A stretch of 17,508 nucleotides of DNA from Solirubrobacteraceae bacterium (GTDB lineage Bacteria > Actinomycetota > Thermoleophilia > Solirubrobacterales > Solirubrobacteraceae), in the NCBI GenBank assembly GCA_030043235.1, contig JASHYF010000374.1:1-17508 (forward strand), read 5' to 3'. Of this stretch, positions 842 through 15,683 are shown piece after piece. Made by a program: the position numbers and the translations under genes. The notes under the pieces are model-generated. The model had not been told where the DNA came from, did not search any database, and saw nothing but the letters and a program-made list of their open reading frames with translations. Within the stretch, counting starts at the first letter, position 1. Each line of letters begins with the position of its first letter.

Positions 842-1114
842 ATGGAGAGCGGTGGCCTCGGAGACCTGTTCGGCGACCCCGAGGAGCTGCAGCGCAGGCT
901 GGCGGAGTTTGCCGAGCAGATGCAGGGCAACCAGCGGCTGGTGTGGGCGGACAACGCGATCAAGCTGGCCGTGGACATGACCGTCGCGGCCGTCAACCGC
1001 GTGAACGTGCAGGGCAACGCGGAGGCCCAGGCCGAGCAGATCCGCACGGTGATCGCGCGCGTGTTCCCGGAGGCGGTGACACTCGTGCGCGAGGCGCGCG
1101 AGGGGCTTCAGTAG
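842..1114 (+). CDS. Small conserved-looking helical protein, function unknown
   Basis: The 90-residue product starts MESGGLGDLFGDPEELQRRL and is predicted almost wholly helical, with an amphipathic N-terminal helix (about residues 12-28) and further helices to the C-terminus (VTLVREAREGLQ). It has no signal peptide, membrane segment or cysteine. I chose the ATG at 842 because TATGAT lies at the right distance for a leaderless start. The in-frame ATG at 815 would overlap the start codon of the divergent membrane gene. The stop (1112-1114) lies inside the last codons of the convergent flippase-like gene, a 7-bp overlap. I recognise no family. The short helical character would suit a protein-binding or scaffolding role, but that is a guess. 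Confidence 0.65.
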   Translation: MESGGLGDLFGDPEELQRRLAEFAEQMQGNQRLVWADNAIKLAVDMTVAAVNRVNVQGNAEAQAEQIRTVIARVFPEAVTLVREAREGLQ

Positions 1115-2136
1115 TAGTCCAGCCGGCGCGTAGCGCCGCCGGCATGCTCCGCCGCCCGCTCGGCCTCGCGCGAGGCGCGGCCCGCGTGCAGCACCTCCCG
1201 GAAGGAGCGAAAGCGGAAGATGAACACCACCGCACCGAGCCCGGCCAGCGCGGTGAACGCCGCGATTGCGATCTGCTGGCCGACCGAGTAGGCGGCCACG
1301 ATCGCGGTGGGCGCGCTCGCGGCGAACACCTTCACGAGCAGCGCCTGCTGCACGCCTGCGCCGCCGGGCGTGAACGGCACCGCACCGGCGACCTGGTTGA
1401 CGGCGAACACGAGCAACACGTTCTCCACCGAGCCGCCCACCCTGAAGGCGTCCAGCAAAAACCAGAAGGCGACGAAGCGGCACGCCCACGAGAGCGCCTG
1501 CAGGGACAGGACTTCGCGCGCGTAGCGGCGGCGGTCGCTGAGGATCGTCAGCCCCTGGCGCACGCGCTCCCAAAACGCCTTCGCGCGCTCGGCGAGCAGG
1601 GCGAAGGCGAGCACGCCGAGCACGCCGAGCAGCGTGATCAAGAACAGCGTCAGGTGGAAGTGCTCGGCGAGATAGGAGATGTCGAAGGAGCTCAGCTTGG
1701 AGAAGTCCGGCGGCTTGGGGAAGACGCCCTGCGTGAACGCGAAGATCAGCACGAGCACGCCCACGCCGAGGTCGAAGATCGCCTCCACGAAGAAGCTCGC
1801 GGCCACCGTCGGATAGCGCGAGCCGGGGATCGAGGAGCGCGTGAGGAACAGCTTGATCACTTCACCGCCGCGCGCCGGCACGACGTTGTTGAAGCCCACC
1901 GACGCGAAGTACGCGCCCCACACGCGCCGCCACTGGAACTCGGCGGTGGGATACGCGGCGCGCAGGCTGTTGAAGAAGGCGCGCGAGCGCAGCGTGAGGT
2001 TGAGACCGAAGAACGCGAGCCCGAGCACCAGCGCGCCCCAGTGCACGGCCGCGAGATCGGAGAAGAACTGCCCGGCCGCGCTCAGGAACGAGTGGATGCT
2101 ATGGCCGATCGAGGTTGACGCGGGCAACGCGGGCAC
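1108..2136 (-). CDS. Flippase-like integral membrane protein (YbhN/AglD2, LPG_synthase_TM fold)
   Basis: The 342-residue protein has about eight hydrophobic segments and the two hallmarks of the lysylphosphatidylglycerol-synthetase TM / UPF0104 family: FNNVVPARGGEVIKLFL near residue 82 and QVAGAVPFTPGGAGVQQALL near residue 250. Relatives include the membrane half of MprF and archaeal AglD-associated proteins. They are thought to flip or accommodate lipid-linked groups across the cytoplasmic membrane. It lacks the soluble aminoacyltransferase domain of MprF, so lipid aminoacylation is not expected. The start is a GTG at 2136 with TACGCT 7-12 nt upstream and no Shine-Dalgarno, which fits a leaderless message. 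The C-terminus is charged and ends RRLDYY. The gene is divergent from an epimerase 44 bp away, so a shared role in a glycolipid or envelope polymer is possible but unproven. Confidence 0.88.
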   Translation of the reverse strand: MPALPASTSIGHSIHSFLSAAGQFFSDLAAVHWGALVLGLAFFGLNLTLRSRAFFNSLRAAYPTAEFQWRRVWGAYFASVGFNNVVPARGGEVIKLFLTRSSIPGSRYPTVAASFFVEAIFDLGVGVLVLIFAFTQGVFPKPPDFSKLSSFDISYLAEHFHLTLFLITLLGVLGVLAFALLAERAKAFWERVRQGLTILSDRRRYAREVLSLQALSWACRFVAFWFLLDAFRVGGSVENVLLVFAVNQVAGAVPFTPGGAGVQQALLVKVFAASAPTAIVAAYSVGQQIAIAAFTALAGLGAVVFIFRFRSFREVLHAGRASREAERAAEHAGGATRRLDYY

Positions 2137-5540: not shown

Positions 5541-6707
5541 TTACAGGCTTGGTTTGTGCAGATGCACAAGCAGGTGCTCGCTTGCGAGCGCCACGTACAC
5601 GCACGCCAGATCGCGGGGACTGGCGAGGTCCAGGCCGGTGATCTCCTCGATCCGATTGAGCCGGTAGGCCAGCGTGTTGCGGTGGATGTGGAGCGCCGCG
5701 CTCGTCGCAGTGCGGTCGAGGCGGCAGGCGATCAGGGTCTCCAGGGTGCGCGCAAGCTCCACGTGCTCCTCGCCCGCGAGCGGCGCGAGCACGCGCGCGC
5801 GCAGCTGGGCCGTCAACCGCGGCGAGCGGTCGAGCAGGATCTCGAGCAGGTGATCCTCGGTCTCCAGCCGCCCGAGCAGGCCGGCCAGACGCGCGTGCTC
5901 GGCGAGCAGCACCACCTCCTCGCGGGCGGCCGCCAGCTCGCCGCGCGGCGCCGGCCCGCCGATCGCCAGCGCCACCTCGGAGCCCTCGCCGAGGTCCGCG
6001 AGATCGAGCGGCCTCCACGTGAGGCCTACGACGCAGTCGCTCTGCGTGACCGCCAGCCTCCACCCGCCACGGCGCAGGCGCGCGGCGAGCGCGGCGTGAC
6101 TGTGCGGCGGGCGTCCCGGCATCGCCACGGCAAACGGCCGGTACTCCTCGTGCACCGGCACACCCAGTCGCTCGGCGAGCTCGGTGTCGGCGGAGTCCAG
6201 CGGAGAGGCCGTGCACAGCGCCTCGAGCAGGCTGCGCGTGCGCCGCTCCTCCTCGGAGACGAGCAGCTCGCGCTCGGCGAGATACGTCTCGGTCACGACC
6301 GCTGAGACGCGGTCGACGTACTGGGCGAGCGGCGCGGCGAGCTCGAGCAGCACCTCGGACTCGTCGGCTCGGGCGTGAGAGCGCAGCAGCCTCCATCCGA
6401 GCTGGTGGGCGAGCCCGAAGGAGCGCAGCAGCTCCTCCAGCCGCAGGCCCTCGGCGGCGCGGGCGCGGGTCCACTCGCGCAGCGCGTCGAAGTCGCTGTC
6501 GGGCGGCATCACCCCCGTTGACACGAACCGCGTCCAGCGCCTGAGCGTGCGCTGCAGGCCGCTGACGACGTCCGCGCGCGAGCCCTCGGAGAGGTGCTCG
6601 AAGGCGACCGTGCCCCGCTGGAACTCGGCGGCCATCTCCGCTGCCGCCTGCGCCTGCGGGATCCGTGCGACGATCGCGGCGGCGGCCCCGGCGGACGTCT
6701 CGCTCAC
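5541..6707 (-). CDS. PucR/CdaR-type transcriptional regulator
   Basis: The 388-residue protein ends in the PucR C-terminal HTH (HTH_30), about residues 319-372, with the core HIHRNTLAYRLNRIEEITGLDL. The region before it (about 175-310) resembles the degenerate GGDEF-like/CdaR middle domain. The N-terminal 160 residues are helical, as in the RsbT-co-antagonist-like sensor portion of many actinobacterial PucR proteins. Such regulators usually control catabolic or stress genes near them. The start is a GTG at 6707, 18 bp after the stop of the upstream gene on the same strand, so the two are likely co-transcribed. GGAGG occurs upstream but spaced about 13 nt away. The exported hydrolase follows 117 bp downstream and is a reasonable target or operon partner; no ligand can be inferred. 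Confidence 0.88.
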   Translation of the reverse strand: MSETSAGAAAAIVARIPQAQAAAEMAAEFQRGTVAFEHLSEGSRADVVSGLQRTLRRWTRFVSTGVMPPDSDFDALREWTRARAAEGLRLEELLRSFGLAHQLGWRLLRSHARADESEVLLELAAPLAQYVDRVSAVVTETYLAERELLVSEEERRTRSLLEALCTASPLDSADTELAERLGVPVHEEYRPFAVAMPGRPPHSHAALAARLRRGGWRLAVTQSDCVVGLTWRPLDLADLGEGSEVALAIGGPAPRGELAAAREEVVLLAEHARLAGLLGRLETEDHLLEILLDRSPRLTAQLRARVLAPLAGEEHVELARTLETLIACRLDRTATSAALHIHRNTLAYRLNRIEEITGLDLASPRDLACVYVALASEHLLVHLHKPSL

Positions 6708-7530: not shown

Positions 7531-7980
7531 ATGAGCGTCGATGAGGCGTCCGGGGCCCGAGCCGGGGCAGGCGGTGCCGCCAGCCCTGCGAGAGGCGCCG
7601 CACGCACGCCCGACGGGCAGGTGTGCGTCGAGCTGACGAACGCGCAGGTGGAGGGCGTCATCCGCGCGACCACCCAGGCGCACGGGCCGAGCCTGGGCCT
7701 GCTGCTGTCCGGGTTGATCTCCGAGCAGGCGATCACGGAGGGATCGCTCGAAGATCGCTACTGCGCCGAGCTGGAGAGCGGACGCCTGTCCCATTCGCTG
7801 TTCCGCGGCCTGCTGATACTCGCGCTGTTCGTCTCCGGCGGCGAGCGGCGGGGAGTCGTGGAGGTCGCCCGGCAGCTGGGGCTGAGCCCGAGCACGACGC
7901 ATCGCTACATGACTACGCTGGTGGCCTTTGGCCTGCTCGTGCAGGATCCCACCACGCGCAAGTACCGGCTACCGCTGTGA
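7531..7980 (+). CDS. Stand-alone IclR-type winged-helix DNA-binding protein
   Basis: The 149-residue protein has a low-complexity Ala/Gly-rich N-terminus (about 1-28) and a helical middle (VELTNAQVEGVIRATTQAHG). A C-terminal winged helix (about 88-147) has the IclR-like pattern VVEVARQLGLSPSTTHRYM followed by TLVAFGLLVQDPTTRKYRL, the recognition helix and wing. IclR proteins are normally about 250 residues with a C-terminal effector domain. Here the protein ends right after the wing, so any ligand or partner must act through the N-terminal region. From memory, such HTH-only proteins are numerous in Thermoleophilia, which supports the taxonomic guess. No Shine-Dalgarno precedes the ATG. Its 3' end overlaps the convergent terpene synthase by 12 bp. 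Confidence 0.85.
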   Translation: MSVDEASGARAGAGGAASPARGAARTPDGQVCVELTNAQVEGVIRATTQAHGPSLGLLLSGLISEQAITEGSLEDRYCAELESGRLSHSLFRGLLILALFVSGGERRGVVEVARQLGLSPSTTHRYMTTLVAFGLLVQDPTTRKYRLPL

Positions 7981-9165
7981 GCGGATCCTCGAGCTTCGGT
8001 GGTGCTTGCGGCGCGCCGCGGCGGTGCCCGGCGGCGGCGAGCAGCTACGCCGCCGCCAGCGCATCACTGCGAGCATGGGCCTCGTGGTCGGTCCGAGGCA
8101 ATCGAGCGTGCGCGCTGCGACAGGGCGAGCGAGCTCGCTGCTTGCCTCGGGGGCTGAGAGGTAGAAGCTGGCGATGCCGGCGAGGATGATCGCGTGGCGC
8201 GCGCCCTTGCTCAGCGCGCTCGCGAGCACGCGCGCTTCGCTGGCGATCGCGGCGAAGCGCCGCGCGGCCATCGTCGGCGTGGAGTAGTGGCTGACGAAGC
8301 TGTGGTTGGTGCCGGCGGCGTCGTGCGGCTGATCGATCAGGCTGTCCAGCAGCGCGCTGAGCGCGCATATGGAGGGGAAATAGGCGGCGTCGACGCGCTC
8401 GGCCTGCTCGCGCGTGCTCGTCGCGCAGGCCGCGAGGGCGAAGAGCGCGTGGATCGCCAGACAGGAGATGCCCGCGGCGGCCAGCTCCCACCACAGGTAC
8501 CCGGCCGCGGGCGCCGGCGATCCACCGGGGTCCGCGTGCGCCGCGGCCCACTCGGCCAGCTGGTCCTGGCCTTCGACCAGCACCGCATGGTTGCGGCTCT
8601 GCGCCTCGCCGCAACGCCCGGCAGCAAGCGCGAGCGCCGGCTGGACCGCCTTGACCGAGGGAAGCGCGCGCACGCCCGCCTGGCATGCGCGCACCAGCGC
8701 GGTGAGATACCCGCCGTCGTCGTGCTGGGGGTGATAGCGGTAGTAGCCGGCCGGGGACGGCCCCGCGTCCGCCTCCATTTGCACGGTGCTCGCCGCGTCC
8801 ACTGCGTCGCACAGCGCACGGTGCAGCTGCAGTCCGTTGCGCAGCGGCGCGGACTCGGGCTGCTCGTTGATCGCGTCGAGGTAGTCGTAGGCGATCTGGA
8901 AGTCGACCATCAGGCGCACCAGGCGCCCCCTTCCTCGCAGCGGGGCGAGCACGGCGAAGCAGGCGGCGGCCTCCGGGTTCAGTCGCTCGCCGGTGAGCTT
9001 GTGCACGGCGTGCGCGCGGAGCGTGGGATCGCCGATCTCGCCGGCACGCCGTCTCCAACGGCGGATCTCGCGCCGGGCGCACGGGTAGATCGTCAGCCAG
9101 TAGCTGGCGGCGACCGCGAGCACGGCGCTCACTTCCCGCGCAGGGGACATGCGTTCGATTCGCAT
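7969..9165 (-). CDS. DUF2600 family large-terpene synthase (YtpB-like)
   Basis: The protein of about 398 residues matches DUF2600, the family of Bacillus tetraprenyl-beta-curcumene synthase YtpB. Diagnostic segments are VDFQIAYDYLD (about 87-97, metal-binding Asp residues) and YFPSICALSALLDSLIDQPHD (about 262-282). The N-terminus (AASYWLTIYPCARREIRRW) and C-terminal RPMLAVMRWRRR also look typical. Family members cyclise long linear isoprenyl diphosphates (C25-C35 in Bacillus); the substrate here is unknown and no prenyltransferase or second cyclase is in the window. Beyond RPMLAVMRWRRR is a basic tail of about 25 residues that runs into the 3' end of the HTH gene, probably from loss of an earlier stop. 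No Shine-Dalgarno marks the start: ATG 9165 is chosen, ATG 9150 (393 residues) is equally possible, and a TTG at 9195 less so. A TGTAATAAC promoter box lies about 40 nt upstream. Confidence 0.87.
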   Translation of the reverse strand: MRIERMSPAREVSAVLAVAASYWLTIYPCARREIRRWRRRAGEIGDPTLRAHAVHKLTGERLNPEAAACFAVLAPLRGRGRLVRLMVDFQIAYDYLDAINEQPESAPLRNGLQLHRALCDAVDAASTVQMEADAGPSPAGYYRYHPQHDDGGYLTALVRACQAGVRALPSVKAVQPALALAAGRCGEAQSRNHAVLVEGQDQLAEWAAAHADPGGSPAPAAGYLWWELAAAGISCLAIHALFALAACATSTREQAERVDAAYFPSICALSALLDSLIDQPHDAAGTNHSFVSHYSTPTMAARRFAAIASEARVLASALSKGARHAIILAGIASFYLSAPEASSELARPVAARTLDCLGPTTRPMLAVMRWRRRSCSPPPGTAAARRKHHRSSRIRSQR

Positions 9166-9189
9166 ACGACCATACTGGTGCGAAATATC

Positions 9190-9210
9190 CCGCAATTTGC
9201 GGTTATTACA
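9190..9210 (-). promoter_or_regulatory. Candidate promoter (TAATAA) with overlapping palindrome upstream of the terpene synthase
   Basis: On the minus strand TAATAA (9208-9203) is preceded by TG one base away (TGTAATAAC), an extended -10 pattern. The 13-bp palindrome CCGCAATTTGCGG (9190-9202; 6-bp arms, one central base) lies where transcription should start. A protein bound there would block initiation. No convincing -35 is seen; the region where one would be is the end of the 17-bp array. Confidence 0.45.
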
Positions 9211-9220
9211 ACTGATGTTC

Positions 9221-9357
9221 TAGTCCGGGGCGCCGGTCTAGTCCGGGGGCCGGTCTGCTCCGGCGATCGGCCTGCTCCGGCGACCGGCCTGCTCCGGCGA
9301 CCGGTCTAGTCCGGCGACCGGTCTAGTCCGGCGACCGGCCTGCTCCCGCGATCGGCC
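9221..9357. repeat. 17-bp tandem repeat array, 8 copies, running into a stop codon
   Basis: One 18-bp unit (9221-9238) and seven 17-bp units (starting 9239, 9256, 9273, 9290, 9307, 9324, 9341) follow TRSTCCGGCGACCGGYC with few variants (TAG or TGC at the start, GAC or GAT in the middle, GGTC or GGCC at the end). Each unit holds CCGG-3 nt-CCGG, so every copy can form a tiny hairpin. The array begins immediately upstream of the terpene synthase promoter box. On the other side it runs directly into the TAG stop codon (9357-9359) of the ABC permease, whose last codons (CAG GAG TAG) look like a ninth partial unit. Regular period without spacers excludes a CRISPR. Confidence 0.93.
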
Positions 9358-11915
9358 TACTCCTGAAGAGCCAGCTGGGGTGCGACCTGCGAGGCGAGAT
9401 ACCCGGGAATCGCGAGCAGCACGAGCGCGCCCACCACGATCAGCACGATCGTCTGGATGGTGTGGAGCCCTTCCACCGCGAACGGGGCCGGGAATCCGGT
9501 TGTGAGCCTGAGATAGCGGTCGCACAGCAGATGCCCGTACACGCCGGCGCCCGCTCCGATGACGCCGCCGGTGCCGAGCACGAGAATCGACTCGAAGGCG
9601 AGCACGCCGCGCAGCTGCCAGGGACTGAAGCTGTGTATCCGCAGCGACGCGAGCGACGCGCGGCGCTGCCAGATGCCCGCGCCTATCGCAGCGGCCATCG
9701 CCAGCGCGGCCGCGACCATCAGCAGCAGCGTGATCTGCCTCATGCGACTGAGCCCCTGGCGAGCGAGCGCGTCGGCCTGGGCCGCTCGTTCACCGCTGGT
9801 CTGGACGATCAGCGCGGTGCGCGATCCAAGCAATCCCTGCACGGCGCGTTTGACCGCCGCCACGTTTGCGCGGGGCGCGGTGTCCACTTCCAGCGCGGTC
9901 ACGTCCGAGGTCCCCCACGCCCGCGTGTAGTCGGCGCTGTTCAGGATGATCGCGCCCGCGCTCCAGCCCAGGTTGGTGGTGGTGGCGGCGATGCGATAGG
10001 TGACCGGACCGGTGGGGGTGGGCAGCGTGAGCGCCTCGCCGACCTTCGCATGGAGGGTTTCGGCTATCTGCTGCGAGACGGTCATCCAGCCGCCGCTGCG
10101 CAGCCGCGCGGTGGCAGTGGCGAGGCTCCCCTCCTGCAGCTGGCTCGCGGGGATCGGCGTGGGAGTGGCGCGAGCGCGGGCGATGATCCACACGCGCCGG
10201 CCGTCGAAGTCGAGGAAGCCGCCCTGGTAGCCGCGCACGCTCGCCACTCCGGGCAGGGCGGCGATGCGCCTGGGCAGTCCGCCCGCGGGGAAGCTCGTGG
10301 TGGCAAGGTCGTCGTCGACGTTGACCACCCACAGCCCGGCGGTGGAGACGTATTCGGAGTAGTCGCGGTACAGGCCGCGGAGCAGGTCGTTGTGCGAGTC
10401 TTCAGCGACTACGCAGCCGAACACGGCGATCGCGCCGGTGGCCGCGAGCGCGAGCGAGCGCACCGTGGTGGCCCGCAGCGCGCGCACGGCGACGGTCAGC
10501 ATGTTCAGCCGCGCGGAGTGCGCGGCGAGCTGCTGGGCAAGCCGCACGACGAGCTGAAACGCGAAGGGAATCGCGAGCAAGGTGGCGAGCGCCAGCCCAA
10601 CGGTGGCAGGCACGATCGCGGAGGGCCACAGCAGCAGCGGGCCGCTGGTGAGCGCGATCAGCACCGCGCCGGCCAGGAGCAGGCGCAGCTGTGCGCTGCC
10701 GTCGAGCGCCTGGCCCGGTTCGCCGTCCTCGAAGTACACGGCGTCGACCGCGCGGCTGTGGCGCAGGTCGAACAGCGGTGGCGCCGCTGCGAGGCATGTG
10801 GCGAGGATGCCGCCGGCGAACGAGATCACCAACGGACGCAGCCCGACCACCGTCTGGGTGCCAAGCGAGAAGGCGGCGGCGAGGTAGCTCGGCGTGGTAT
10901 GGAAGATCGTGCGCGAGAGGAAGTCGCCGGCGGCGAGCCCCGCGAGCGAGGCGACGACGCCCAGGCAGATCGCTTGGAAGGCGAGCATCCGCACGAGCTG
11001 CCACGGTCTCACGCCCTGTATGCGCAGGTCGGCGATCACGCGTCTGCGCTCCGGCACGGTGAGCAGCATCGCGTTGAAGGCGAGCAGGAAGCCGACGACC
11101 GCGCTGACGAGCACGAAGAAGCCCGTGGCCTTCGTATTGGGAGCGACCGCCTGCTCGAGCAGGGTGACGTCCTGGCCGGCCGGCGCGACCGTCAGGCGCC
11201 CGCCGGCGAGCGCGTCCAGCTCGCGCTGGACGAGCGCCTGCCGGCCGTGCTCGGTGGTGATGAGGATGCGCGTGACGCGCCGGCGAAGACCTGTGATCCT
11301 CTGCACGAAGTCGAGCGGCGCGACCGCGGCAAGCGCGCCGGAGAGATCTCCGATCGCTTCGGGACCGAGCACCGCCACCACGGGAACCTCGAGCGCGCGC
11401 CCGCGCACGTCGAGCGATACCCGCGACCCGCCTCCGGCGAGCGACTGCGAGCTGGGCGGCGGCATCCCCAGCGCGTGCGCGGTGGCGCTCGGCAGGATCA
11501 GCCCCGGCATGTCGAGGTCGCGCAGCGAGATGTTGCGGGTGATGCTCCCGCCGAAGGCCAGAAGACTCGGTGCGGCGCTGGCGAGATCTATGAGCACGCG
11601 ATGCCCGCTCGGCCCGACGAGCGAGACGTTCTGATCGAGTATCGGCGCGGCGAGCGACACGCCCGGCAGCCTCTGCACGTCCGCGAGGAGACGTTCGCTG
11701 AAGCCGTTTGAGTCGCGCGAGCGCAGCTGCAGGCTTGCGCTGCCGGCGATGCCCCGCACGATCGCGCTCGACGCGTCGGTTATCGAGCTGTTGGCGACCT
11801 GCACCGCGAACACGAGCGCCACTCCGATCGCGATGCCGACGCCGGCGAGCAGCTCCTGGATCGGCCGCGTGCGCAGCCGCCTTCCGTACAGGTAGATCAG
11901 CCCGGAAAGCCGCAC
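9357..11915 (-). CDS. ABC transporter permease, FtsX/MacB type with two FtsX domains
   Basis: The 852-residue membrane protein has an N-terminal TM (LLAGVGIAIGVALVFAVQVA), a large extracytoplasmic domain, then a cluster of TMs (KATGFFVLVSAVVGFLLAF, AFQAICLGVVASLAGLAAG, FAGGILATCLAAAPPL, further hydrophobic blocks around 430-490 and 505-530). A second extracytoplasmic domain follows, then three C-terminal TMs (LLLMVAAALAMAAAIGAGIW, VLAFESILVLGTGGVIGAG, IVLIVVGALVLLAIPGY). This duplicated FtsX layout is typical of type VII (MacB/LolE-like, mechanotransmission) ABC systems, which move lipoproteins or peptides outside the membrane. The GTG at 11915, 7 nt after the ATPase stop, starts with VRLSGLIYLYGRRLRTRP, a usual family opening. 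Longer in-frame starts would overlap the ATPase gene. No periplasmic adaptor gene is nearby, as expected for a monoderm. Substrate is unknown. Confidence 0.88.
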   Translation of the reverse strand: MRLSGLIYLYGRRLRTRPIQELLAGVGIAIGVALVFAVQVANSSITDASSAIVRGIAGSASLQLRSRDSNGFSERLLADVQRLPGVSLAAPILDQNVSLVGPSGHRVLIDLASAAPSLLAFGGSITRNISLRDLDMPGLILPSATAHALGMPPPSSQSLAGGGSRVSLDVRGRALEVPVVAVLGPEAIGDLSGALAAVAPLDFVQRITGLRRRVTRILITTEHGRQALVQRELDALAGGRLTVAPAGQDVTLLEQAVAPNTKATGFFVLVSAVVGFLLAFNAMLLTVPERRRVIADLRIQGVRPWQLVRMLAFQAICLGVVASLAGLAAGDFLSRTIFHTTPSYLAAAFSLGTQTVVGLRPLVISFAGGILATCLAAAPPLFDLRHSRAVDAVYFEDGEPGQALDGSAQLRLLLAGAVLIALTSGPLLLWPSAIVPATVGLALATLLAIPFAFQLVVRLAQQLAAHSARLNMLTVAVRALRATTVRSLALAATGAIAVFGCVVAEDSHNDLLRGLYRDYSEYVSTAGLWVVNVDDDLATTSFPAGGLPRRIAALPGVASVRGYQGGFLDFDGRRVWIIARARATPTPIPASQLQEGSLATATARLRSGGWMTVSQQIAETLHAKVGEALTLPTPTGPVTYRIAATTTNLGWSAGAIILNSADYTRAWGTSDVTALEVDTAPRANVAAVKRAVQGLLGSRTALIVQTSGERAAQADALARQGLSRMRQITLLLMVAAALAMAAAIGAGIWQRRASLASLRIHSFSPWQLRGVLAFESILVLGTGGVIGAGAGVYGHLLCDRYLRLTTGFPAPFAVEGLHTIQTIVLIVVGALVLLAIPGYLASQVAPQLALQE

Positions 11916-11922
11916 GTGCGCT

Positions 11923-12696
11923 TCAGCCCCACGCTTGGCGCGTGCTTGGCACTGGAGCCGGCGCCCCGTGGCGCTCCCGCGCCGAAGAGGGGAGCGCCGG
12001 CTCGTGCACGAGGAGCCTGCCGTCGCGCAGCGTGCACGCGCGGTCACATACGCTGGCCGCCTGCTGATCGTGGGTGACGAGCAGGACGGCGACGCCCTGC
12101 TCGTGGGCGATGTCCGAGAGCAGTCTCAGGATCTCCGCCCCTCGCTGGGTGTCGAGGCTTCCAGTGGGCTCGTCGGCGAGAATCAGTCGCGGCTCGTTTA
12201 CGAGCGCGCGCGCAATCGCCACGCGTTGGCGCTCGCCGACGGAGAGCTGGTCGGGCGTGTGGTTGAGGCGCTTGCTGAGCCCGACACGCTCGAGCCAGGG
12301 AATCGCAGCACGGCGTGCCTGCTTCAGCGGCACGCGACTTGCGAGCAGCTTGATCGCCGCGTTCTCCACAGCGGGGACTCCCGCCATGAGGTGAAACGAC
12401 TGGTGGACGAACCCGATCCTCGTGCGCTGGTAGTCCGCCGTCTGGGCGCTGGAGAGCTCTGCGAGGTCCTGATCTTCGAAGCGAACGACTCCCGCGTCGG
12501 GCCTCATGAGCGCCGCGGCGAGCATCAACAGCGTGCTCTTGCCTGAGCCGCTGGGCCCGTGCAACGCGACGAGCTCGCCGGCGCCGACCCTCAGGCTGAC
12601 CCCGTCGACCGCGCGGATGACCTCGCCGCCGCAACCGGGGTAGTGCTTGACGACGCCATCGAGCTCGAGCACGGCGTCGCCGGCGCGGCCGCTCAC
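11923..12696 (-). CDS. ABC transporter ATP-binding protein, canonical (LolD/MacB type)
   Basis: The 257-residue ATPase carries every expected motif: Walker A GPSGSGKST (47-55), Q-loop Gln99, signature LSVGE (151-155), Walker B LILADE (171-176), D-loop SLD and H-loop His209 (VTHD). It is the LolD/MacB-like class that pairs with FtsX-type permeases. The GTG start at 12696 overlaps the stop of the preceding ATPase gene (GTGA), indicating translational coupling. A tail of about 28 residues after the conserved core (HEPALPSSARERHGAPAPVP) is Pro/Ala-rich and looks disordered. This subunit should provide the hydrolysis activity of the complex, since its partner ATPase lacks key residues. Confidence 0.93.
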   Translation of the reverse strand: MSGRAGDAVLELDGVVKHYPGCGGEVIRAVDGVSLRVGAGELVALHGPSGSGKSTLLMLAAALMRPDAGVVRFEDQDLAELSSAQTADYQRTRIGFVHQSFHLMAGVPAVENAAIKLLASRVPLKQARRAAIPWLERVGLSKRLNHTPDQLSVGERQRVAIARALVNEPRLILADEPTGSLDTQRGAEILRLLSDIAHEQGVAVLLVTHDQQAASVCDRACTLRDGRLLVHEPALPSSARERHGAPAPVPSTRQAWG

Positions 12697-13415
12697 GGTC
12701 GGCGCGCTCCAGACTCCGCGCGTCGCAGCGGCACGACGTGTCCCTCCGCGTGTCGCACCTCTCCGCGCAGCTCCCCGTTGTCGATCGACAGCGCGCGATC
12801 GACGCCGGACAGGCCCTGTGCGTCACCGGTGCTCATCAGCACCGCGGTGCCTTCGTTGGCGATCGAGCGCAGCAGGGACAGCAACGGGTCGCGCTCGAGC
12901 AGGTCGACGCCGCTGGTGGGCTCGTCGATCACGAGCAGCGCGGGCGCCGTTATGAGCGCGCTGGCGATGGCCACCCGCACGACCTCCGCACCGGCGAGCT
13001 CGTGGCACTCCAGACGCGCGCAGTGCTCGGCGCCCACGCGAAAGAGCAGCTCCTGTCCACGGCGGCGGGCCTGCCGCGGCAATGCCCGCTGGGCCAGCAG
13101 CCCCGCGGCGATCTGGTCGATGACGAGCCCCTGCTGGGCCGAGGAGGAGCACGTCTGGCAATAGCCGATCCGCCTGCCGAGCAGGCTGTTGCGAGAGCGC
13201 GCGAGATCGCGCCCTTCGAAGGTGACGCGGCCCTCTTCGGGAAGCTCGATGCCGGCAGCCACGCGCAGCAGGGTGCTGCGCCCGGAGAAGCGCGCGCCCC
13301 ACACGGCGACGAGCTCGCCCGCGTCGATGTCGAGCGACACGTCTCTGACTGCCACGCGCTCGAGCCGTCCGCGCGTGTAGCGCTTCGTGACGTGATCGAT
13401 CGACAGCAGGCTCAT
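12693..13415 (-). CDS. Degenerate ABC ATP-binding protein (altered Walker A, signature and H-loop)
   Basis: The 240-residue protein keeps the ABC ATPase frame: an A-loop-like start (MSLLSIDHVTKRY), Q-loop Gln87 (IGYCQT), Walker B with catalytic Glu (LLVIDEPT, 160-167) and D-loop SGVD. Three active-site elements are changed. Walker A is GARFSGRST (40-48), with the lysine replaced by Arg46 and the fourth position by Phe. The signature is LAGAE (140-144) rather than LSGGE. The H-loop histidine is Gly197 (STGD). The reading frame is intact and normally spaced, so this looks like a maintained degenerate subunit rather than decay. It starts with ATG overlapping the padR stop (ATGA) and ends in GTGA overlapping the canonical ATPase. 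An asymmetric heterodimer with that ATPase is the natural inference. Confidence 0.88.
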   Translation of the reverse strand: MSLLSIDHVTKRYTRGRLERVAVRDVSLDIDAGELVAVWGARFSGRSTLLRVAAGIELPEEGRVTFEGRDLARSRNSLLGRRIGYCQTCSSSAQQGLVIDQIAAGLLAQRALPRQARRRGQELLFRVGAEHCARLECHELAGAEVVRVAIASALITAPALLVIDEPTSGVDLLERDPLLSLLRSIANEGTAVLMSTGDAQGLSGVDRALSIDNGELRGEVRHAEGHVVPLRRAESGARRP

Positions 13416-14071
13416 CGCAAGGCGGGTTGGTGCGCCGAGCCTGCGTGCATCGCGCGAAGCTCGGCTCGCGCATAGGTGATCCAGGCGAGCTGCGCGTCGA
13501 TCATCCGCCTGCGCTCCTCCACGAGCAGCCGCTCGAGCACGCCGGCCAGGTCGCCGGCTGCGCCCGCCTCGCCGTCGGCGGGTCGCGCCAGATCCTGCGC
13601 CTCGCGGACGCATTCCTGCTCGTAGCGGCCGATGAATTCGAGCGCCGCGCCGACGCTGCGCACGCCCGCGAGCGCCATACGTCCGAGCATCTCCACGCGC
13701 TGGGGATCGCTGCGGACACGCTCCGCCAGCCACGCCCGGTACGCGCGCGCGCCGTACGCGGTGGCGCGATAGGACGCGCCGGCTTTCGCTCCGCGGCTGA
13801 CGCCGGTTTTGGAGTATCCCGACATCTTCTCGATCAGCTCGGCTTCCATCAGGCTCGTGAGCGCCGCGTAGATCGACGAGCGGCCGACGCTCAAAAAGCC
13901 GCCGAAACGCCGCTCGAAACGCTGGCCGATCTCATAGCCGTGACTGGGCTTCTCGATCACCAGCCCGAGCACGGCGCAGGCGACCTGCGAGCGCAGCACG
14001 GCGCTTCCCGCGGGATCGCCCGCGGGATGAGATCCCTGCCCCTGCAAGGCCTGTTCGCCAGATACCGCCAC
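13412..14071 (-). CDS. PadR-family transcriptional regulator
   Basis: The 219-residue protein has the PadR winged helix at about residues 28-85: VACAVLGLVIEKPSHGYEIG, then SVGRSSIYAALTSLMEAELIEKM, with the wing leading into SYRATAYGARAYRAWL. The C-terminal half is helical, as in the PadR/Vir_C dimerisation domain. Such proteins often repress an adjacent ABC transporter operon and respond to its substrate. The GTG at 14071 is preceded by GAGGAGG four bases away, one of the few clear Shine-Dalgarno sites in this window; a GTG 18 nt further upstream is possible. The stop overlaps the next ATG (ATGA), so regulator and transporter are made from one message and autoregulation is likely. Confidence 0.9.
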   Translation of the reverse strand: MAVSGEQALQGQGSHPAGDPAGSAVLRSQVACAVLGLVIEKPSHGYEIGQRFERRFGGFLSVGRSSIYAALTSLMEAELIEKMSGYSKTGVSRGAKAGASYRATAYGARAYRAWLAERVRSDPQRVEMLGRMALAGVRSVGAALEFIGRYEQECVREAQDLARPADGEAGAAGDLAGVLERLLVEERRRMIDAQLAWITYARAELRAMHAGSAHQPALR

Positions 14072-14100
14072 GCGGCCTCCTCGGGTCACACGCGACCGTC

Positions 14101-14178
14101 TTTTTGATCTGTCGACAAGCGTACCGGTCATTCCAAACTTTACAGTTAACCAGCTACATAGAAACATTGTGTGCACGG
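14101..14178 (-). promoter_or_regulatory. AT-rich promoter/operator region of the padR-ABC operon
   Basis: This stretch is clearly AT-richer than its surroundings. On the minus strand TACGCT (14123-14118) is a candidate -10, giving a leader of about 40 nt before the GTG at 14071. Short dyads nearby are TGTCGACA (14110-14117), AACT-TTAC-AGTT (14136-14147) and GTTAAC (14145-14150). ATGT occurs twice, 4 nt apart, on the minus strand near 14155-14167; PadR sites often contain ATGT/ACAT half-sites, though a proper inverted pair is not seen. An operator here is plausible, but which dyad is used cannot be told. Confidence 0.4.
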
Positions 14179-14239: not shown

Positions 14240-14320
14240 GCTCACCCCTGCCCGCGAGGCGCTCAGGCTGCCCACGGAGCGCTCAGGCTGCCCGCGAAGC
14301 GCTCAGGCTGCCCGCGAGCG
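14240..14320. repeat. 20-bp tandem repeat array including the peroxiredoxin stop codon
   Basis: Three 20-bp units starting GCTCAGGCTGCCC lie at 14261-14280, 14281-14300 and 14301-14320, with a degenerate 21-bp copy before them (14240-14260). The third unit contains the TGA stop (14303-14305) and the last two codons of the peroxiredoxin, so the array appears to be duplications of that gene's 3' end. Between the array and the padR promoter lies the 14-bp palindrome AGCGGCGCGCCGCT (14197-14210). I see nothing else in this 231-bp gap apart from the padR promoter region. Confidence 0.88.
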
Positions 14321-14788
14321 CAGCTGCGCGAGCGCTTCCAGCACGAGCGCGTCGTGCTCGGCGGGCTTGATCTTGCGCAGGACAGCCGCCACCTTCCCGT
14401 CGGCGTCCACGATGAACGTGGTGCGCTCGTTGCCGAAATACGCTTTCCCGTACATCGACTTCTCCGCCCAGACCCCGTAGGCGTCCGCGACGCCGTGGCC
14501 CTCGTCGGCGAGCAGCGAGAAGTTCAGCCCCTCCTGCTCGTGGAACCGCTTGACCTTGGCGACGGGATCGGGCGAGATCCCGAGCACGACGGCATCCGCC
14601 TCCTCGTAGTCGGCGCGATGATCTCGGACGCTGCACGCCTGCGTCGTGCATCCCGGGGTGGACGCCTTCGGATAGAAGTACACGACGACCGGCCGGCCGC
14701 GCAGGCCGGAGAGCTTGACGGCCCTGCCGTCCTGGTCGGGGAGCTCGAAGTCGGGGGCCAGCTCACCGGGCTCGATCACGGACGGCAT
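14303..14788 (-). CDS. bcp: Thioredoxin-dependent peroxiredoxin, Bcp/PrxQ type
   Basis: The 161-residue protein reduces hydroperoxides using a cysteine pair recycled by thioredoxin. The peroxidatic Cys47 sits in FYPKASTPGCTTQAC and the resolving Cys52 five residues later, the atypical 2-Cys arrangement of the PrxQ alpha type. Further family marks are PDFELPDQDG at the start, LGISPDP, and GNERTTFIVDADG near the C-terminus; the length is normal. It is cytoplasmic, with no signal peptide. The ATG at 14788 lies 31 bp after the mutM-like stop, so co-transcription with that repair gene is likely. No good Shine-Dalgarno is seen. The last codons fall in the 20-bp tandem array. Confidence 0.95.
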   Translation of the reverse strand: MPSVIEPGELAPDFELPDQDGRAVKLSGLRGRPVVVYFYPKASTPGCTTQACSVRDHRADYEEADAVVLGISPDPVAKVKRFHEQEGLNFSLLADEGHGVADAYGVWAEKSMYGKAYFGNERTTFIVDADGKVAAVLRKIKPAEHDALVLEALAQLRSRAA

Positions 14789-14819: not shown

Positions 14820-15683
14820 TCAGCGCAGCAGCCGCGAGAGCCGCCGGTCCTTGAGCACCCGCCCCTCGGTCTGGCAGACGGGGCAGTAGGCGATCACGTA
14901 GTCCTCGAAGTGCACGGCCTCGAGCGTGGCGGCACAGCGTGGGCACGGCTCGCCCTGGTGGCGGTGGACGCGCAGCGGCATCGGCAGCTTGTCGGGGATC
15001 GGCAGGCTGATCGTCTGCTGATAGGAGGCGATCGCCTCGCCGAGGGTCTGGACCATCGCCGCGCGCAGCCGCTCGATCTCCTCACGCTCGAGGCCGGCGC
15101 CGCGCTTGTATGGCGACAGCCGCGCGTGCCACAGGATCTCGTCGGCCCACGAGCGCCCGATGCCGGCGATCACGTGCTGGTCGCGCAGCAGCGCGTGCAG
15201 CGGGCGCGGCGCGTCGAGCAGCTGCTCGAGCTGGCCCGGCTCGCCGGGCTCGGGCCACGCCTCCGGGCCGAGGCTCGCGAGCGCCTCCTCCTGCTCGAGC
15301 TCGCCGGCGCGCAGCAGCTTCACCCAGGCGGCCTGCTTGGAGCCGAACTCGCGCAGGCGGAGCTCGCGGCCGTCGTGCAGTCCCACGAGCAGTCGCGAGG
15401 TCCGGTCGCGGTGTGCGGCCGGCTTGTCATAGAGCTGCAGCCGCCCAGAGGACATCAGGTGAACGAGCAGCGCGAGCGGCTCGCCGCTGCCGTGGATCTC
15501 GACGAGCAGGTGCTTGCCGCGCCTGGCCACGCCCGCGATCCGCCCGCCCTCGAGCGCGGACAGCGGCGGGTCGAAGGTCCTCAGCGCGTTTATCCCCGGC
15601 GCCCGCGCGTACTCGATCCGCGCGCCCGTCAACGCGTGGTCGAGCAGGCGCGCCGTGATCTCCACCTCAGGCAGCTCCGGCAT
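14820..15683 (-). CDS. mutM: Fpg/MutM-family DNA glycosylase (divergent member)
   Basis: The 287-residue protein begins MPELPEVEI, with the catalytic N-terminal Pro2 and Glu3 that form the Schiff base and cleave oxidised purines from DNA. Lys57 (RRGKHLL) is also conserved. The helix-two-turn-helix region reads IAGIGRSWADEILW (172-185), where classical Fpg has Asn in GIGN. The zinc finger is complete (Cys247, Cys250, Cys267, Cys270), but the usual Arg before the second Cys pair is absent (EDYVIAYCPVC). So it is an active-looking Fpg/Nei superfamily protein with some altered DNA contacts; 8-oxoguanine specificity should not be assumed. TACGAT about 11-16 nt upstream of the ATG and an AAGGGA site support the start. 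It is followed by the peroxiredoxin, a sensible pairing for oxidative damage. Confidence 0.88.
   Translation of the reverse strand: MPELPEVEITARLLDHALTGARIEYARAPGINALRTFDPPLSALEGGRIAGVARRGKHLLVEIHGSGEPLALLVHLMSSGRLQLYDKPAAHRDRTSRLLVGLHDGRELRLREFGSKQAAWVKLLRAGELEQEEALASLGPEAWPEPGEPGQLEQLLDAPRPLHALLRDQHVIAGIGRSWADEILWHARLSPYKRGAGLEREEIERLRAAMVQTLGEAIASYQQTISLPIPDKLPMPLRVHRHQGEPCPRCAATLEAVHFEDYVIAYCPVCQTEGRVLKDRRLSRLLR

Follow-up and report, generated by a model that had tools for sequence, protein, structure and literature searches.

The window, the whole stretch of 17,508 nucleotides of Solirubrobacteraceae DNA analyzed here, comes from an assembly of 2.67 Mb that is 59% complete. On its minus strand it carries, in order, the genes for a PadR-family transcriptional regulator, a degenerate ABC ATPase (ATPase1), a canonical ABC ATPase (ATPase2), a fused FtsX-type permease, and a DUF2600 protein. 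The first gene (13412..14071, minus strand), whose product matched Pfam family PF03551 at 44.1 bits against a cut-off of 27 when scanned as 13412-14125, has a likely GTG start at 14071, preceded in the sequence by GAGGAGG. ATPase1 (12693..13415, minus strand; ATG at 13415, TGA at 12693) is a LolD/MacB-type protein of 240 amino acids and a putative pseudo-ATPase, and ATPase2 (11923..12696, minus strand; GTG at 12696, TGA at 11923) is LolD/YbbA-like. The PadR stop overlaps the ATPase1 start by four bases (ATGA), and the ATPase1 stop overlaps the ATPase2 start by four bases (GTGA), the coupling that a sequence-only reading of this DNA had claimed. The permease gene (9357..11915, minus strand) begins with a GTG at 11915, 7 nt past the ATPase2 stop, and encodes an 852-amino-acid, YbbP-like protein with two FtsX halves and two periplasmic domains (Pfam FtsX and MacB_PCD). 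Directly downstream lies the DUF2600 gene (7969..9195, minus strand; PF10776; start codon uncertain), which encodes a tetraprenyl-beta-curcumene-synthase-like protein and which the sequence-only reading had overlooked as a fifth gene.

The motifs of ATPase1, all encoded on the minus strand, agreed residue by residue with that reading. They included the following: Walker A GARFSGRST at codons 40 to 48 (13272..13298), with Phe43 in place of Gly and Arg46 in place of Lys; the signature LAGAE instead of LSGGQ/E at codons 140 to 144 (12984..12998); Walker B VIDE with Asp164-Glu165 kept (12921..12926); and Gly197 (STGD) at the H-loop position instead of His (12825..12827). A further loss had escaped notice, that of the Q-loop Gln, which is Thr88 here (13152..13154; IGYCQT versus the canonical IGFVxQ). 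ATPase2 proved to be the canonical partner that had been claimed, intact at Lys, Gln, Glu, and His, although its signature is LSVGE.

Elsewhere in the window, frames were found for a lysylphosphatidylglycerol-synthase transmembrane region (1108-2136, minus strand), a PucR-type HTH protein (5541-6707, minus strand), an IclR HTH protein (7531-7980, plus strand), an AhpC/TSA peroxiredoxin (14303-14788, minus strand), and a MutM-like glycosylase (14820-15683, minus strand). Between the end of the peroxiredoxin gene and the PadR gene, at 14251-14310, a 20-base GC-rich unit (CAGCCTGAGCGC...) is present in three near-identical copies.

Conservation of the degenerate ATPase

A total of 1767 ATPase1 homologues were found at E<=1e-15, and among the best 120 of these, Walker A Arg was present in 120 and the H-loop His in none; the closest homologue listed was 94% identical and lay on another contig. 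These shared lesions, which extend over several genera, exclude both a sequencing error and recent decay. In 79 nonredundant pairs of neighboring ATPases, drawn from the window plus 100 stretches of relatives (101 loci) and assigned as ATPase1 or ATPase2 by gene order alone, the H-loop His was absent from 78 of the first ATPases, the exception being locus L227, and present in all 79 of the second. ATPase2 also kept Lys and Asp-Glu in 79/79 pairs each and Gln in 77/79. PadR adjoined ATPase1 in 74 of the 79 pairs.

In a FastTree phylogeny of 208 ATPases, one branch (support, 100) set off 100 ATPase1s and a different one (support, 86) set off 79 ATPase2s, both groups standing apart from 29 canonical reference ATPases. 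Because the two form separate, supported clades, a single, early origin of the asymmetry is most likely, rather than decay in the window's genome. Comparison of the window with locus L039 gave a dN of 0.21 and a dS of 1.40 for ATPase1 and a dN of 0.18 and a dS of 1.13 for ATPase2, with dS near saturation; at a dN/dS like that of ATPase2, purifying selection on ATPase1 appears supported.

Among the 100 ATPase1s counted, all with intact open reading frames, the Walker B Asp, the last P-loop Gly, and a Lys or Arg in Walker A were each present in 100, the catalytic Glu in 59, and the H-loop His in 1. The Q-loop Gln has usually gone as well, and many members have lost either the catalytic Glu or the signature. 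Relatives with intact motifs, which would have spoken against a conserved degeneracy, therefore exist for Walker A, where 57 of the 100 have Lys and 43 have Arg, and for the H-loop in L227 only. The retention of the core Mg-nucleotide residues together with the loss of hydrolysis residues is the main reason for reading ATPase1 as a protein that would bind Mg-nucleotide without hydrolyzing it. Four extreme relatives in an unchanged operon position (L280, L291, L292, and L304) are altered in the Walker A surroundings or, in L280, at the Walker B Asp; some extreme copies of this kind were met later, via the permease, and are not among the 100 counted. Since L280, which belongs to these, carries Asn for the Walker B Asp, nucleotide binding by ATPase1 may not be universal. 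In genome G030, at locus L296, one ATPase1 copy is broken in two frames.

The lesions are graded between the two Walker A types. The change from Lys to Arg occurred once on the tree, the 29 paired Arg-types forming a single clade (support, 98), and Arg was then fixed in 43/43 Arg-type ATPase1s; within the ATPase1 tree, changes were counted at Glu (7), the signature Ser (9), and the signature Gly (13). The Lys-types, although without the His, often retain other motifs; the signature Ser was retained by 5 of the 43 Arg-types versus 45 of the 57 Lys-types. For one Lys-type subfamily, several of whose members bear the name Conexibacter, all of the best 120 of 6144 matches were examined. Lys, Glu, and a Ser or Thr in the signature are present in all 120 and Gln in 119; in the same 120 of 120, Pro replaces the H-loop His, Asn replaces the D-loop Asp, and Arg replaces one Walker A Gly. 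In the C-terminal tail of ATPase1 (12693-12760 in the window), a short motif reads VVPLR in most Arg-types and is VIDFP-like in the Lys-type tails examined.

The signature of ATPase2 was LSGGE in 24 of 29 Arg-type pairs versus 7 of 50 Lys-type pairs. This correlation was rejected as proof of contact between the two ATPases, since the difference between the clades rests on one Lys-to-Arg event on the tree and so provides no independent evidence. The state of the ATPase1 signature was not significantly associated with the ATPase2 Gly (Fisher p 0.21), and inter-protein mutual information over the 79 pairs, which are few and related sequences, showed no enrichment at the expected dimer contacts.

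Permease, operon content, and linkage to DUF2600 genes

The permease matched PF02687 at 65.4 bits and PF12704 at 41.3 bits, both above the cut-off. Its structural model (pLDDT, 88.5) had YbbP as its best fold matches, at 12-14% identity in the structural alignments, and shows the YbbAP layout, a single polypeptide in which the FtsX half is duplicated and two periplasmic domains are present, together with the MacB-like periplasmic core domain of Type VII permeases. On this modeling, the protein can be classed as a YbbP-like Type VII permease of the fused kind. The ATPase1 model (pLDDT, 89.7) best matched chains of MacB, LolD, YbbA, and FtsE; the LolD/MacB ATPase fold is thus indicated for ATPase1 by its model and for ATPase2 by sequence models only. 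The curated LolD models were missed by ATPase1 (118.6 versus 360 bits and 110 versus 307.75 bits) and by ATPase2 (197.6 versus 360 bits and 206 versus 307.75 bits), and ATPase2 also missed the curated YbbA model NF007879 (175.1 bits versus a cut-off of 336).

From 139 loci, 116 nonredundant permeases were collected, of which 5 with truncated upstream regions were set aside, as were 7 that scored below 400 bits and represented outgroups or fragments. Among the remaining 104, a script assigned both ATPases to 88 operons, ATPase1 only to 9, ATPase2 only to 3, and neither to 4; by eye, L215 proved to be an ATPase1-only operon, its second ABC gene being unrelated and upstream, which gives 87 with both and 10 with ATPase1 only. 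Two different ATPase genes, and not the single one of YbbAP, are therefore found in 87/104 operons, and a lack of the partner ATPase, which would have weakened the proposal of a two-ATPase machine, concerns about 10 of the 104. ATPase1 and the permease occur without an adjoining ATPase2 at L061 to L064, L077, L198, L215, L226, L237, and L296. In the ATPase1-only operons read, the degenerate motifs were not restored, so the partner ATPase may come from elsewhere. At L304, L305, and L307, a second PadR-ATPase1 unit is convergent to an ATPase1-ATPase2-permease-DUF2600 unit, and L316 (5496-7592) and L306 show tandem copies, of ATPase1 in one locus and of the permease in another.

An ATPase profile at E<=1e-30 was uninformative, matching all 296 genomes of a phylum sample, and a stricter cut-off of 1e-58 was used afterwards. 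The latter passes a few canonical ATPase2s and misses extreme ATPase1s, several of which were found only via the permease, so that the ATPase1 genome counts are lower bounds. Strict-profile matches occurred in at least 33 of 232 Solirubrobacterales genomes (6 of 54 genera) and, in a class sample, in at least 26 of 399 genomes, all 26 within Solirubrobacterales; at the strict score, none of the matches listed for the 296-genome phylum sample lay beyond the window's genome. Judged by these profile matches, the ATPase1 clade was found only in Solirubrobacterales within the searches made, where it is present in several genera and families. Conexibacter arvalis DSM 23288 (L149) has the full operon, including DUF2600.

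The window's DUF2600 protein matched PF10776 at 237 bits (cut-off, 25) and PDB entry 5yo8, a solved tetraprenyl-beta-curcumene synthase, at an E value of 2.8e-32. Its acidic motifs are conserved in relatives (74 aligned rows, gapped rows dropped per column), motif 1 having D in 60/70, D in 70/70, and E in 70/70 and motif 2 having D in 63/63 at both positions. For 80 of the 116 permeases, the downstream sequence available spanned 600 nt or more; 51 of these were followed directly by a DUF2600 gene on the same strand, 2 by a convergent one, and 27 by none that this test could find. DUF2600 matches were found in 12 of 15 genomes examined. Scoring at most 8 candidates per genome (three genomes held a few more) gave 55 DUF2600 genes in the 12 genomes; 54 of them had a family permease no more than 3 kb away, and 42 lay directly downstream of one on the same strand, corresponding to 42 of the 76 permeases entered for these genomes. 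In the one-contig genome G406, all four DUF2600 genes are directly downstream of a permease on the same strand. At two loci, L283 (1004-2371) and L284 (1131-2276), DUF2600 is instead directly upstream of an ATPase2-permease pair, with no ATPase1 in the upstream stretch fetched.

Across the 232 Solirubrobacterales genomes, ATPase1 was matched in 33, DUF2600 in 30, and both in 26 (Fisher p 6e-24, uncorrected for kinship), which leaves 7 of the 33 ATPase1 genomes with no DUF2600 match. In the 4 genomes with DUF2600 and no ATPase1, the transporter was absent from the stretches fetched around the DUF2600 genes. This tight linkage provides a concrete hypothesis for the substrate of these transporters, a terpenoid lipid, and it is on genomic linkage that the proposed terpenoid role rests.

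Comparison with known ABC systems

In MacB, LolCDE, and FtsEX, which are Type VII ABC systems, the motor is understood to contain a pair of like ATPases. The window's operon resembles these and BceAB in the ATPase fold and in the FtsX/MacB_PCD permease domains and differs from them by a degenerate second ATPase. In the part of the source consulted, the Type VII entries of Bacillus subtilis have one ATPase used twice, and a degenerate second ATPase is not mentioned (PMC11466899). In architecture, the operon resembles YbbAP-TesA of Escherichia coli, which shares a fused, internally duplicated FtsX permease with LolD-type ATPases and a lipid-active enzyme partner, TesA there and the DUF2600 protein encoded here. 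YbbAP-TesA is described in the consulted part of its report as a 2:1:1 complex with a pseudosymmetric fold, in which one YbbA is used twice per YbbP (PMC12646458); the window, in contrast, has two ATPase genes, one of them degenerate, and a terpene-synthase relative as the partner.

One-sided loss of Glu, His, or the Walker A Lys is shared with TAP, ABCC proteins, TmrAB, TM287/288, Pdr5, and ABCG5/G8, although these have other permease types and gather the lesions of both subunits in one composite site. According to the sections consulted of a review, each site of an ABC dimer consists of the Walker half of one subunit and the signature of the other; in Pdr5, the NBD1 Walker motifs and the NBD2 signature form one degenerate composite site, and in ABCG5/G8, a Walker A Lys-to-Arg change and signature changes lie inside the degenerate site (PMC7756269). 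The window's Arg-type differs in having all lesions in one polypeptide. It thus shows one TAP-like feature, two different conserved ATPases of which one is without catalytic residues, and lacks the other, the confinement of all lesions to one composite site, which fits the Conexibacter Lys-type. Taken from its motifs, the Lys-type pattern, with His and the D-loop Asp lost and the signature kept, is a classical TAP-like one; in a heterodimer, one site would come near the consensus and the other would be degenerate, as in TAP and ABCC proteins.

A pair of different LolD-like ATPases also occurs as PhnK/PhnL of C-P lyase (7z15, a title among the ATPase1 fold matches). That system is not known to include a permease. 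Among terpene synthases, the window's DUF2600 protein resembles Bacillus YtpB/BalTS through its match to 5yo8 and the Asp-rich motifs kept in relatives, and it differs in that the first motif of the window type ends in Glu, not Asp; the published Asp-rich motifs of tetraprenyl-beta-curcumene synthase were taken from the part consulted of PMC7839719. A search of titles and abstract beginnings in the open-licence PMC literature found, among the papers listed, no Type VII system with a degenerate second ATPase, no DUF2600 with an FtsX transporter, and no DUF2600 transporter operon of the window's kind. The DUF2600 gene after the permease and the terpenoid proposal are put forward here as new.

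A proposed asymmetric machine and its alternatives

The degeneracy itself is confirmed and is more strongly supported than the sequence-only reading had claimed. The asymmetric machine suggested in that reading is plausible, to judge from the motifs and their distribution, and has gained from the conserved degenerate clade, the signs of purifying selection, and the canonical partner and fused permease of 87/104 operons. That reading had further supposed that the degenerate subunit holds a single active site. This would fit the Lys-type cousins; it does not follow for the window's Arg-type. In a head-to-tail dimer, the canonical Walker half of ATPase2 would need the ATPase1 signature to complete it, and in the Arg-type this signature, LAGAE, is itself broken, which speaks against an ordinary catalytic site between ATPase2 and ATPase1. 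In an Arg-type, either ATPase2 would hydrolyze slowly against a poor signature, or ATPase2 would pair with itself and ATPase1 would act as a regulator.

The preferred reading, about evenly poised between right and wrong in our estimate, is an asymmetric Type VII machine in which ATPase1 would be the ATP-holding, nonhydrolyzing half and which would be linked to DUF2600 and a terpenoid lipid substrate. Under PadR control, two unlike ATPases would sit on the fused, internally duplicated permease of an FtsX/YbbP-like machine. In this presumed ATPase1-ATPase2 heterodimer, ATPase1 would take the place of the second ATPase, loaded with ATP and serving as a strut or hinge, and hydrolysis would be carried out by ATPase2. 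As in TAP-like heterodimers, the ATPase2 site could still be completed by the ATPase1 signature in the Lys-type relatives; with the decayed signature of the Arg-type, firing of ATPase2 would be slow or gated by the substrate. The cargo extracted or exported would most likely be a membrane terpenoid made by the neighboring DUF2600 enzyme, a terpenoid substrate being suggested by the gene neighborhood.

A homodimer of ATPase2 on the permease, like YbbA on YbbP, with ATPase1 as a separate nucleotide-sensing regulator that competes for one docking site or switches the transporter off, is the strongest competitor, though a rather unlikely one. Since the lesions of ATPase1, including that of the signature, all lie in one polypeptide, an Arg-type heterodimer would have two half-broken sites, whereas an ATPase2 homodimer would have two sound ones, given the sound Walker half of ATPase2 and its LSGGE signature in most Arg-type pairs (LSVGE in the window); three operons moreover have ATPase2 with no ATPase1 in view. 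The single tree event behind the signature difference weakens the first point, the roughly 10 operons with ATPase1 and no ATPase2 nearby would be odd for a mere regulator, and the lesions of the Conexibacter Lys-type are those that a catalytic heterodimer predicts.

It is decidedly improbable that ATPase1 is instead a scaffold, with ATP only structural, that recruits a cytosolic partner, the DUF2600 enzyme or some other, to the permease. Such a role would draw on the DUF2600 linkage and on the C-terminal motif, a loose VVPLR-type pattern of which was found in the tails of 32/43 Arg-types, 7/57 Lys-types, and 0/79 ATPase2s, but ATPase1 is also present in the 7 genomes with no DUF2600 match and in operons without DUF2600. 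That ATPase1 is a functionless, decaying duplicate, a recent pseudogene of this lineage, can be given almost no credence and is largely refuted by its conservation across genera and families, for despite the repeated catalytic changes in its tree, the four extreme copies, and the broken copy in G030, the 100 counted frames are open, the P-loop Gly and Walker B Asp are invariant, Arg has held in 43/43 since its single origin, and dN/dS is like that of ATPase2.

The asymmetric ATPase1-ATPase2 machine extends, as a tentative and on balance somewhat doubtful proposal, to Type VII mechanotransmission by one catalytic and one permanently ATP-loaded, nonhydrolyzing ATPase that moves DUF2600-made terpenoid lipids, in paralogue families of stepwise motor inactivation whose Arg-type has no fully canonical composite site. 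The many paralogues, among them those in Conexibacter arvalis DSM 23288, form a natural gradient that runs from few lesions to complete loss. A conserved heteromeric Type VII system in which one subunit is a pseudo-ATPase would allow a test of whether a single hydrolysis event is enough for mechanotransmission or two are required. In some soil bacteria of the Solirubrobacterales, the presumed membrane machine combines a functional ATP motor with a permanently altered one and is often encoded beside a terpene-synthase-like enzyme, which points to a one-sided motor for terpene-like lipids.
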